This document shows positions 24,285 through 27,793 of a stretch of 64,000 nucleotides of DNA, piece after piece. The notes under the pieces were generated by a model, which made no database searches, had not been told where the DNA came from, and saw only the letters and a list, made by a program, of their open reading frames with translations. Numbering within the stretch: the stretch's first letter is position 1; each line of letters begins with the position of its first letter. The stretch comes from Desulfomicrobium escambiense DSM 10707 (GTDB lineage: Bacteria; Desulfobacterota; Desulfovibrionia; Desulfovibrionales; Desulfomicrobiaceae), in assembly GCF_000428825.1 (NCBI RefSeq), contig NZ_AUAR01000010.1, positions 62,001 to 126,000 of the forward strand, written 5' to 3'. Made by a program: the position numbers and the translations under genes.

Positions 24285-25163
24285 CTAGATGAGTCCCTTG
24301 CCGGCCAAAAAGGCGCGCAGGCTATCGGCGTTGGCCGGGCTCATGGGCACCAGCGGCAGCCGCAGCTCCAGCTTGATGCGACCCATGAGGGCCAGGGAGG
24401 TCTTGGCCGGGATGGGGTTAGTCTCCAGGAACATCATGCGCGAGAAGGGTGCCAGCTCGAAATGCAGCTTCTGCGCCGTGGGCAGGTCGCCGGCGAACCA
24501 GGCCGCGCACATGCCGCTCATCTTGTCCGGCAGGATGTTGGAGACCACGGAGATGACGCCGCAGCCGCCTACGGACAGGAGCGGCAGGACCGTGAAGTCG
24601 TCGCCCGAGAGAACCTGGAAGTCCGGGCCGCAGTATTCGAGTACCTGGGAGACCTGGTTCAGGTCGCCCGTGGCTTCCTTGATGCCGATGACGTCCTTGA
24701 TGTCCTTGTTCAGGCGGGCCACGGTGGCCGGCAGGAGGTTCACGCTGGTGCGGCCGGGCACGTTGTAGACGATGAAGGGCATGGACACTTCGGAGGCGAT
24801 GCGCTTGAAGTGCTGGTACAGGCCCTCCTGGGTCGGCTTGTTGTAGTAGGGGGTGATGAGCAGCGCCCCGTCGGCCCCGGCCTCCTTGGCGTACCGCGTC
24901 AGCTCCACGGCCTCGGCCGTGTTGTTGGACCCGGCCCCGGCCAGGACAGGCACCCGTCCTTTGACCTGGTCCACGCAGATGCTGATGACGCGTTTGTGCT
25001 CCTCGTGGCTCATGGTCGCGGATTCGCCGGTGGTGCCGCAGGGCACAACGCCGTTGATGCCGCTCTGCACCTGCCATTCGATCAGCTGCCGGTAGGCTTC
25101 CTCGTCGATCTGGCCGCCTGAGAACGGAGTGACCAGGGCTGTGAAGGCTCCTTTGAATTGCAT
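24285..25163 (-). CDS. dapA: 4-hydroxy-tetrahydrodipicolinate synthase
   Basis: A 292-residue TIM-barrel lyase condensing pyruvate with aspartate semialdehyde in lysine and meso-diaminopimelate synthesis. Seen are ALVTPFSGGQIDEEAY, the GTTGESAT phosphate/substrate loop, the catalytic Tyr in PFIVYNVPGRTS and the Schiff-base Lys in VIGIKEATGD. Normal length. It follows dapF by 48 bases with GGGAGG before the ATG, so two DAP-pathway genes are adjacent. Confidence 0.96.
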   Translation of the reverse strand: MQFKGAFTALVTPFSGGQIDEEAYRQLIEWQVQSGINGVVPCGTTGESATMSHEEHKRVISICVDQVKGRVPVLAGAGSNNTAEAVELTRYAKEAGADGALLITPYYNKPTQEGLYQHFKRIASEVSMPFIVYNVPGRTSVNLLPATVARLNKDIKDVIGIKEATGDLNQVSQVLEYCGPDFQVLSGDDFTVLPLLSVGGCGVISVVSNILPDKMSGMCAAWFAGDLPTAQKLHFELAPFSRMMFLETNPIPAKTSLALMGRIKLELRLPLVPMSPANADSLRAFLAGKGLI

Positions 25164-25211: not shown

Positions 25212-26051
25212 TTAGAGGCCCATGGCGGCCGGGCTGAACTCGCCCTGGTAGACGACGGTGGCCTTGCCGCGCAGGAAAATGTCCGATCCGTTCACGGTGA
25301 TCCCGAGCACCTCTCCGCCGGAGGTGGTCACGCGGGCCGTGGCCCCGCACAGGCCCAGGGCGTGGGCCACGGCCACGGAGGCCGCGGCGCCCGTGCCGCA
25401 GGCGTAGGTCTCGTTCTCCACGCCGCGTTCGTAGGTGCGCAGCAGAAGTTCTCCGGGGCCGACCACCTGGATGAAGTTGGCGTTGGTCCCGGCCGGGGCG
25501 AAGCGTTCGTGGTAGCGCACCTTGGCGCCCAGGCCCCTGACGTCCAGGGCCTTCACGTCGTCCGTGACGATGACCGTGTGGGGCACGCCGGTGTTGGCGA
25601 AATGGGCGGTCCGGGTCTCGTCGCCGAGCTGCAGCGGGAAGTTCAGGGTCAGGTCTCGGGCCGGGGTCAGCTGCACCTCGACCTCGCCGGCTTCGGCGAA
25701 GACCTTGGCGTGGACGGGGCCGGCGTCGGTGAGCATGAAGTGCTCGGCCGGGGCCATGCCCAGGCGGTAGGCCAGCAGGGTCGCGCAGCGCGAGCCGTTG
25801 CCGCACATCTCGGCGCGCGAGCCGTCGGCGTTGAAGAAGTGCCAGCGCGTGGCGGCGCGGCCCGAGTCGTCCGCTTCGAGAAAGATGATGCCGTCGGCGC
25901 CGATGCTGAAGGCGTGGGGGCACAGGGCCCTGGCCCAGCCGGGCATGGCGTCGGGGGATATGGAGCGGGCGCGGTTGTCGATGACGATGAAGTCGTTGCC
26001 GCTGCCCTGCATCTTGTAGAAGGGCTGGGTGGGTCCGGAGAAAATGGACAT
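25212..26051 (-). CDS. dapF: Diaminopimelate epimerase
   Basis: A 279-residue cofactor-independent epimerase turning LL-DAP to meso-DAP for peptidoglycan. Both catalytic cysteines are visible: MCGNGSRCATLL and YACGTGAAASVAVAH. The N-terminal KMQGSGNDFIVID motif is typical. The ATG at 26051 is preceded by AAGGATACGAC and is preferred over upstream in-frame codons. It lies 75 bases after the selenoprotein gene on the same strand. Confidence 0.95.
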   Translation of the reverse strand: MSIFSGPTQPFYKMQGSGNDFIVIDNRARSISPDAMPGWARALCPHAFSIGADGIIFLEADDSGRAATRWHFFNADGSRAEMCGNGSRCATLLAYRLGMAPAEHFMLTDAGPVHAKVFAEAGEVEVQLTPARDLTLNFPLQLGDETRTAHFANTGVPHTVIVTDDVKALDVRGLGAKVRYHERFAPAGTNANFIQVVGPGELLLRTYERGVENETYACGTGAAASVAVAHALGLCGATARVTTSGGEVLGITVNGSDIFLRGKATVVYQGEFSPAAMGL

Positions 26052-26126: not shown

Positions 26127-26978
26127 TTACCGGGTGAAGATGGCCTGGATGTCCGGGGCCGAAGCGATGTTGTCGCCCAGGGGCTGGGACAGGGTCCGGA
26201 CGGACTGCTCCGGCGCCCACACGATCTTCTCCCCCGGAGCGGGCAGGGCGGGGATGGTCACGGTGTGCACGTTCTTGCCCTTGGTGAAGGCGCGCACCCA
26301 CAGCACCCGGTTGTCCCGCAGGTACAGCCCCGAGTAGCCGGGGCCTTCGCCCGAGCCCAAAATGATGTCGAACACGGGCTCGGCCTTGTCGATGAAGGCG
26401 TTTTCCCGCGCCGCGCCCCAGGTGCTCACGCCGATGACGAGGTTGAACTTTCCCTTGGCCCGCAGATTCCGGGCGTAGTCGACCAAGCGCTCCTCCATGG
26501 CCGGGTCGGTCCTGCCCGAGTCGGGGAAGAGGACGAAGGCCAGCCGCCCGCCGGGCACGTTCCGTTCGACCAGGGCCGGTTCGTCGAGGGGGGCCTGCCA
26601 CGTGCGCGCGGGGCGCACTTTCGTTCCGTTCAGCACAGCAGCGTCGGCCGGGCTCAGCAGGAAGATGTCGTAACCCAGCATGCCGTAGGCCTGCTTGAGC
26701 TGTTCCACGGCCGCCGGATGCCGGTCGCCCTCGGTGCCGGGGACGGCGAATTCGTATCCGCCGTCGATGAACACCGCGCCGCCGTTCTCACGGACGGTCT
26801 TGAAGAAGGTGGCCCGCCGGGCCAACCCGCCGTAGGACTTGCCCCCTCAGGAGGGGCAGGGCGAGTGCTCGCCGTAGGTGTTGGCGGTGAAGACCAGGGC
26901 GGTTTCGGTCCCGGCCGTGGCGGAAAGGGGGGCGGCCGCCATGACCATGAGCAGCGCAGCGAGGAGGAGGTGTTTCAT
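26127..26978 (-). CDS. UshA-like periplasmic selenoprotein (in-frame UGA = Sec44)
   Basis: Read from the ATG at 26978, the gene encodes a signal peptide (MKHLLLAALLMVMAAAPLSA), then VFTANTYGEHSPCPS, an in-frame TGA at 26849-26847, and GGKSYGGLARRATFFKTVR, continuing to a normal stop at 26127: 283 residues if UGA is decoded. The frame on both sides of the TGA is conserved in style and belongs to the 5'-nucleotidase/UshA-like metallophosphatase group, in which a selenoprotein branch is known. The TGA makes a CPSU (CxxU) motif, and a hairpin lies at the expected distance (26824-26810). Without readthrough the product would be only a 43-residue stub. Substrate unknown; a redox or metal-bound periplasmic role is inferred from CxxU. 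It follows the MinD-like gene by eight bases, with a weak ribosome site. Confidence 0.8.
26810..26824 (-). promoter_or_regulatory. Candidate bacterial SECIS hairpin
   Basis: On the minus strand TGGCCC-GGC-GGGCCA forms a perfect six-base-pair stem with a three-base loop beginning with G. The stem starts 22 bases, and the loop 28 bases, after the UGA. Known bacterial SECIS elements have a short apical loop with an early G located about 16-37 bases after the UGA, so geometry and loop base both fit. GC-rich sequence makes chance hairpins common. Confidence 0.5.
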
Positions 26979-26986
26979 GGGCGTGT

Positions 26987-27793
26987 TCACATGTTTGATT
27001 TGAGGATGGGGCTGCGGGAGATGAGGTCCCGCAACCGGTCGCGGCGCTCCAGAATCTTGCGGGCGATCTCGCGGATGTCCTGGGCGGCCTGGCAGTTGGG
27101 GGCGAATTTGAGCAGTGGCACCTGGTGCCGCACGGATTCCGTGACCATGGGGTCGCGGTGGACCGCGCCAAGAAAGTTGACGGGCAGGTTCAGGAAATGC
27201 TCGCAGGCCTGGGACAGCCGGGTGAAGGCGTTCTTGGCCTCCTTGTCGGACTCCGCCATGTTGACGACGATCTGGAAGTTGCGAATCTGATGCTGGGTGC
27301 AGAGCACCTTGATGAGGGCGTAGCTGTCCGTCAGTGACGTGGGCTCGGGCGTGATGACCACGATGCGCTCCTGCGGCATGGCCGCAAAGGACAGCACCGT
27401 GGGGCTGATGCCCGCCCCGAGGTCCAGGAGGAGGAAGTCGTACTGCCGGAAGAGCGCGTCGAGCTTGTCCAGGAGCAGACTCTGCACGTCCTCGTCCAGT
27501 TCGACCAGTTCGGCCACGCCCGAGGCCGACGGCAGGAAGACGAACCCGTCCTTGGCCAGGGGCACGACCACGCTCTCTGCGCTCGTGCCGGCCAGGAGGT
27601 CCTGGATGTTCTTCTCAGGTGAAAGGCCCAGCAGGACGTCGAGGTTGGCCAGGCCCAGGTCCGCGTCCAGCAGGACCAGGGTCTGCCCCAGTTCGTGCAG
27701 GGCGAAGCCCAGGTTCAGTGTCAGGTTGGTCTTGCCCACGCCGCCCTTGCCGCTGGCCACGGAAATGCTGAAAGTCTTGTTCGAGTCGGTCAT
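26987..27793 (-). CDS. MinD/ParA-family ATPase (FlhG/YlxH-like)
   Basis: A 268-residue deviant-Walker ATPase: SVASGKGGVGKTNLTLNLGFAL, then LLDADLGLANLDVLLGL and the second acidic motif FLLLDLGAGISP. The pattern (LGLANLDVLLG, VVNMAESDKEA) is closest to FlhG-type flagellar number regulators, but no flagellar genes are nearby, so the partner FlhF is elsewhere or the role differs. Starts one base past the GGDEF stop, making a coupled c-di-GMP/positioning pair. A C-terminal amphipathic tail (RRDRLRDLISRSPIL) may be a membrane-targeting helix. Confidence 0.85.
   Translation of the reverse strand: MTDSNKTFSISVASGKGGVGKTNLTLNLGFALHELGQTLVLLDADLGLANLDVLLGLSPEKNIQDLLAGTSAESVVVPLAKDGFVFLPSASGVAELVELDEDVQSLLLDKLDALFRQYDFLLLDLGAGISPTVLSFAAMPQERIVVITPEPTSLTDSYALIKVLCTQHQIRNFQIVVNMAESDKEAKNAFTRLSQACEHFLNLPVNFLGAVHRDPMVTESVRHQVPLLKFAPNCQAAQDIREIARKILERRDRLRDLISRSPILKSNM

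Follow-up and report, generated by a model that had tools for sequence, protein, structure and literature searches.

A TGA codon within a UshA-like gene

Does the in-frame TGA of a UshA-like gene in Desulfomicrobium escambiense stand for selenocysteine (Sec) and, if so, what kind of protein has been made of a nucleotidase relative? The gene lies in the 64,000-nucleotide stretch of DNA analysed here (the window), and the features of the locus are collected in Table 1. Re-reading of the minus strand confirmed the frame and coordinates of a preliminary description: 283 codons run from 26978 to the TAA stop at 26127, with a single in-frame TGA, codon 44 (26849-26847). As that description had stated, standard gene calling starts past the TGA, the only product under the standard code being a TTG-started ORF of 232 aa (26127-26825) devoid of the signal peptide and of the CPSU motif (residues 41-44). 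By direct reading, the N-terminus has a positive residue, a hydrophobic core and an AxA-like site, and the structural model places a helix at residues 2-15. The sequence following this apparent signal peptide is VFTANTYGEHSPCPSUGGKSYGGLARR; no CxxCH motif is present in the protein. Other in-frame TGA codons of the window that have a Cys nearby look like wrong-frame noise.

Table 1. Features of the selenoprotein locus (window coordinates).
Feature	Position	Strand	Remarks
Complete selenoprotein CDS	26127..26978	-	283 residues and TAA, read through TGA codon 44; NF049981, 265.5 bits (cutoff 140)
Sec44 codon, TGA	26847..26849	-	Column in 112 relatives: TGA in 96, Cys in 16
Cys41 codon, TGC	26856..26858	-	Opens the CPSU motif, putative resolving Cys; Cys in 109/112 family-2 members
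Probable Sec-type signal peptide	26913..26978	-	Residues 1-22, MKHLLLAALLMVMAAAPLSATA; direct reading and model helix
Bacterial SECIS-type hairpin	26810..26824	-	UGGCCC-GGC-GGGCCA; 28 nt past the UGA, loop begins with G
MinD/ParA-like ATPase gene	26987..27793	-	Ends 8 bp upstream of the selenoprotein gene; conserved neighbour
dapF, diaminopimelate epimerase	25212..26051	-	PF01678; downstream neighbour, conserved
dapA-like gene	24285..25163	-	Second downstream neighbour, conserved; named by sequence and synteny

Selenocysteine decoding

The preliminary description proposed a selenoprotein, and suggested looking for the Sec genes in the genome and for Cys or Sec at position 44 of homologues. Both searches came out in its favour. 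The D. escambiense genome (3.78 Mb, 100% complete) contains selA (621 bits), selB (361 bits), a tRNA-Sec (86 bits against RF01852, anticodon tca, i.e. UCA, by ARAGORN) and selD (L018, G000:C3:238834-239754). This selD has itself one in-frame TGA, and resembles in this respect known Sec-containing SelD. Among 112 family-2 homologues of the class, the Sec column holds TGA in 96 (one of which, L165, is off by one column in the alignment), Cys in 16, and nothing else. Sec was also found in 19 of 23 distant relatives from other classes, and because these too are mostly Sec, the Sec form looks ancestral and the Cys form derived, as judged from the alignments; on a tree built without the loop columns, parsimony gives four Sec/Cys changes, at least three of them forced by supported branches. 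Reading of UGA as Trp, or another reassignment, was considered as well, and is ruled out by the Cys present at this column in relatives and by the dedicated tRNA-Sec.

The nearest named relatives are Desulfomicrobium proteins, with 87% identity to that of Desulfomicrobium sp. RS262. Comparison of codons 45-283 with a Desulfomicrobium relative (L023) gave a dN of 0.054 and a dS of 0.286, values which imply that purifying selection on the protein persists past the TGA.

Twenty-eight nucleotides after the UGA, at 26824-26810, the RNA can form a hairpin with a 6-bp stem and a 3-nt loop, GGC (-9.5 kcal/mol). It lies within the limits given for bacterial SECIS elements in a 2026 review (PMC13188914), namely a loop of 3-9 nt with a G in the first two positions, a stem of 4-16 bp, a spacing of 16-37 nt and a minimum free energy of -7.5 kcal/mol or lower. 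The hairpin encodes part of LARRAT. The full stem is found in 91 of 95 Sec genes, when 12.6 are expected by resampling synonymous codons according to the codon usage of each gene; of the 15 Cys forms, 6 have it. CGG or AGG encodes Arg55 in 92 of 95 Sec genes, compared to 467 of 1360 other Arg codons of the same genes, and in 9 of 15 Cys forms. All these counts come from related genes and hence are not independent events. The hairpin is maintained through synonymous codon choice. When the 47 nt after the UGA are folded in isolation, an alternative fold is preferred by 2.8 kcal/mol (minimum -20.8, local hairpin -18.0), which would pair bases beside the UGA, a part that would lie under the ribosome. 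Dinucleotide shuffling of the same 47 nt gave a z of -0.49, the informative control being the resampling of synonymous codons. Rfam returned no match at the selenoprotein locus.

Could the TGA be a true stop after all, belonging to a pseudogene, to a sequencing error or to a short gene starting downstream? The TTG-started ORF is what such a stop would leave, but the TGA is common to about 95 genes and replaced by Cys in the remainder, selection is seen past it and on the hairpin, and the Sec machinery of the genome is complete, so that we give this explanation practically no weight. An assembly error, named in the preliminary description as a ground for refutation, is excluded because these genes were sequenced independently. 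The selenoprotein proposal is thus supported by the machinery, the Sec/Cys homologues, the conserved hairpin and the selection past the TGA, and from these comparisons Sec is almost certainly incorporated at codon 44.

Family membership and distribution

The window protein matches the NCBIfam model NF049981, "UshA-like (seleno)protein family 2", over positions 2-261 of 262, and by the family's own criterion its membership is certain. Length, motif and Sec position are all the same, and nothing essential differs. That a UshA-like selenoprotein family was already known is therefore correct: NF049981 is tabulated with the motif CxxU in the 2026 review (PMC13188914), and a UshA-like selenoprotein with the motif CxU, as in family 1 (NF041198), can be traced at least to a 2008 ocean metagenome survey (PMC2398784). 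The window protein is a further NF049981 member, from Desulfomicrobium, of a catalogued kind of selenoprotein. With family 1, whose motif is PCGU, it has in common the fold, the Sec/Cys loop and the trailing GGLAR(R/K), but it scores only 35.9 bits against NF041198 (cutoff 275), and family 1 differs by its CxU motif, its length of about 519 positions and its C-terminal tetraheme c554-type domain.

Of 297 genomes sampled from the class of D. escambiense, 159 had a match to NF049981 over its cutoff. In a sample of the phylum, six genomes had one, the host's own and five of its order, and TGA-bearing relatives occur across the phylum. All listed genomes of one genus (g6) are without the family, though other genera of the same taxonomic family (f2) have it. 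Nine Sec relatives without heme motifs, found in other classes of the phylum (L116, L117, L118, L119, L122, L125, L126, L127 and L135), fall short of the curated cutoff of NF049981 as well as that of NF041198, and for this reason are placed in an unnamed third group. Several heme-free members of this group adjoin proC, holA, an HD-domain gene and a GlcF-like gene.

One genus has tandem pairs of the same family, in which the Sec copy comes immediately after the Cys copy (L096, 6232-8016; L097, 6241-8029; further pairs in genomes G041, G057, G064, G067, G080, G089, G140, G153, G187, G285 and G292).

A 5'-nucleotidase fold without its metal site

No Pfam domain was found in the window protein, and a single-sequence search of the PDB returned nothing; its link to 5'-nucleotidases showed up solely in the alignment profile and in the fold. 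An AlphaFold model built with 51 aligned sequences (mean pLDDT 94.8, pTM 0.90) gave as best Foldseek matches in the PDB 5'-nucleotidases (CD73, E 2e-14) and SoxB (E 3e-12), placing the protein in the metallophosphoesterase fold. Independently of the fold search, the alignment profile retrieved the Thermus 5'-nucleotidase (E 1e-11). The label UshA-like is therefore correct by both sequence profile and predicted fold.

The dinuclear metal ligands of this fold (DxH, GD, GNHE, H, GHxH) are missing. Eight metal or catalytic positions have changed: where the nucleotidase motifs have D, H, D, N, H, H, H and H, the window protein has N33, Y35, Y75, P110, A111, T186, G210 and G212, respectively. Across 68 family-2 members, Asn stands at the first ligand position in 64, no member keeps the aspartate of GD, and Gly occupies the two histidine positions of GHxH in 68 and 66 members. 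The true UshA of the same genome (L080), which keeps TNDHHG, DAGD, GNHE, AHLG and DGHSH, served as an internal control. The same genome also encodes a lipoprotein-like protein (L081, G000:C38:18930-19574) whose UshA domain is degenerate (FTGDTQG...GGIAQR) and which has no CxxU. In the alignment, the CPxU loop of the window protein directly follows the former first metal ligand.

As far as alignment and model can tell, the 5'-nucleotidase fold is kept in the window protein and its dinuclear-metal site is lost. Compared to UshA and CD73, with which it shares the N-terminal domain fold and the sequence profile, it also lacks the C-terminal substrate-binding domain and has gained the CPxU loop. 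Homology to 5'-nucleotidases in fold and sequence, and the few ligands kept in some distant Sec relatives such as L123, would agree with a phosphoesterase or nucleotidase having an unusual active site. We regard this as highly improbable, given the eight replaced positions, the glycines at the histidine positions throughout family 2 and the missing nucleotide-binding domain of UshA. Nucleotidase or hydrolase activity is very unlikely because of the replacement of these eight positions.

SoxB, a thiosulfohydrolase, performs periplasmic sulfur chemistry on a scaffold of the same fold family. It retains its dinuclear metal site and has no Sec. As one of the closest solved structures, and one that profiles of the relatives match repeatedly, it brings up sulfur transfer on this scaffold, in which Sec44 would carry sulfane sulfur or a thiosulfonate without hydrolysis; that the hosts are sulfate reducers goes in the same direction. 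The ligands of the metal site are absent, however, and neither Sox partners at the window locus nor a SoxYZ-like carrier beside the gene were seen, which makes such a transfer quite unlikely.

A proposed exchangeable resolving cysteine

The loop cysteine Cys41 is lost in only a few family-2 members. Two of the exceptions, L020 (1426-2337) and L022 (1420-2328), come from one neighbouring genus and end in TSCGH and SSCGQ. In a far lineage, L127 (5911-6891) and L148 have the loops ADSGU and SASGU, and the tails KSCGQR and RFCGQKR. Counting complete proteins without heme motifs, all 4 members that lack the loop Cys have a C-terminal Cys tail of the CG(Q/H) type, and none of the 123 members with a loop Cys does, a coupling that rests on two lineages. 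Two more proteins were counted with neither Cys, one being a fragment (L146) and the other having a GCGC loop of its own (L131). A tail Cys that appears where the loop Cys is lost would be expected if the resolving Cys can be replaced, and this pattern points to a selenenylsulfide cycle. The CPSU motif had been described as redox- or metal-active; the first is now favoured, and the second is less likely, since the metal ligands of the ancestor have been lost and a C-terminal Cys takes over from the partner Cys in some members.

Cytochrome fusion in relatives and gene neighbourhood

In the family-1 relatives L123, L129, L133 and L134, four CxxCH motifs and a Cytochrome_C554 domain (PF13435) lie C-terminal to the Sec/Cys domain; L123 is also above the Metallophos cutoff. 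L130 is likewise listed among the family-1 proteins with a tetraheme c554-type fusion. Such an arrangement suggests heme-to-Sec electron transfer within one chain. The heme fusion belongs to family 1 and is absent from the window protein, which limits the argument; since family 2 lacks the tetraheme domain, its members would dock to separate cytochromes. The D. escambiense genome encodes a small exported tetraheme protein (L082, G000:C13:15340-15702) that resembles the family-1 C-terminal domain and adjoins a methyl-accepting chemotaxis-type gene; it is a possible separate electron partner.

Genomes across the class keep the order GGDEF, MinD-like, (HU), selenoprotein gene, dapF, dapA, which implies vertical inheritance, and the MinD/ParA-like ATPase gene is probably co-transcribed with the selenoprotein gene. 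When examined for function, the neighbourhood (MinD-like, HU, dapF, dapA) showed housekeeping genes only and gave no functional hint.

Proposed function

We somewhat favour the view that the window protein is a two-electron selenol oxidoreductase. SelB and tRNA-Sec would decode UGA44 with the help of the downstream hairpin, machinery and hairpin being recognised by sequence, and the protein would be secreted to the periplasm. As the alignment shows, the CPxU loop beside the former first ligand takes the place of the lost dinuclear-metal site. Sec44 may then attack an oxidised periplasmic substrate, such as a peroxide, a disulfide or a polysulfide-type sulfur compound, and form a selenenylsulfide with Cys41, or with the C-terminal Cys in members without Cys41; periplasmic c-type cytochromes would supply the electrons that regenerate the selenol.

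The CPxU loop might instead be a metal or metalloid site (for mercury, copper, arsenic or selenium species); the protein would then act in the periplasm as a metallochaperone or scavenger rather than as a redox enzyme. CxxU and CxxC motifs of other families bind soft metals, the protein is exported, and wherever Sec is replaced, it is by Cys, which for a soft ligand is a conservative exchange. A resolving Cys, rather than a metal ligand, is suggested by a partner Cys that is dispensable given a C-terminal one, the heme fusion of relatives points to electron transfer, and there are no efflux or metal regulator genes nearby. We consider a metal-binding role unlikely.

The computation brings as new elements the loss of the metal site, the swap to a C-terminal Cys, the heme fusion of family 1 and the tandem Sec/Cys copies. 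The family matters in that NF049981 is widespread; its natural Cys forms and its tandem Sec/Cys pairs are ready-made comparisons. Metal-site loss, exchangeable Cys and heme fusion together put a testable redox hypothesis in the place of a misleading name, UshA-like. More tentatively, the relatives may represent a large, phylum-wide periplasmic superfamily in which a metallophosphoesterase fold, having lost its metals, became a selenol redox enzyme with an exchangeable resolving Cys (in the loop or at the C-terminus), wired to multiheme cytochromes by fusion in family 1 and by docking in family 2. To our knowledge, no selenol redox chemistry is known for the metallophosphoesterase fold and, if this superfamily reading is true, such redox chemistry would be new to it.
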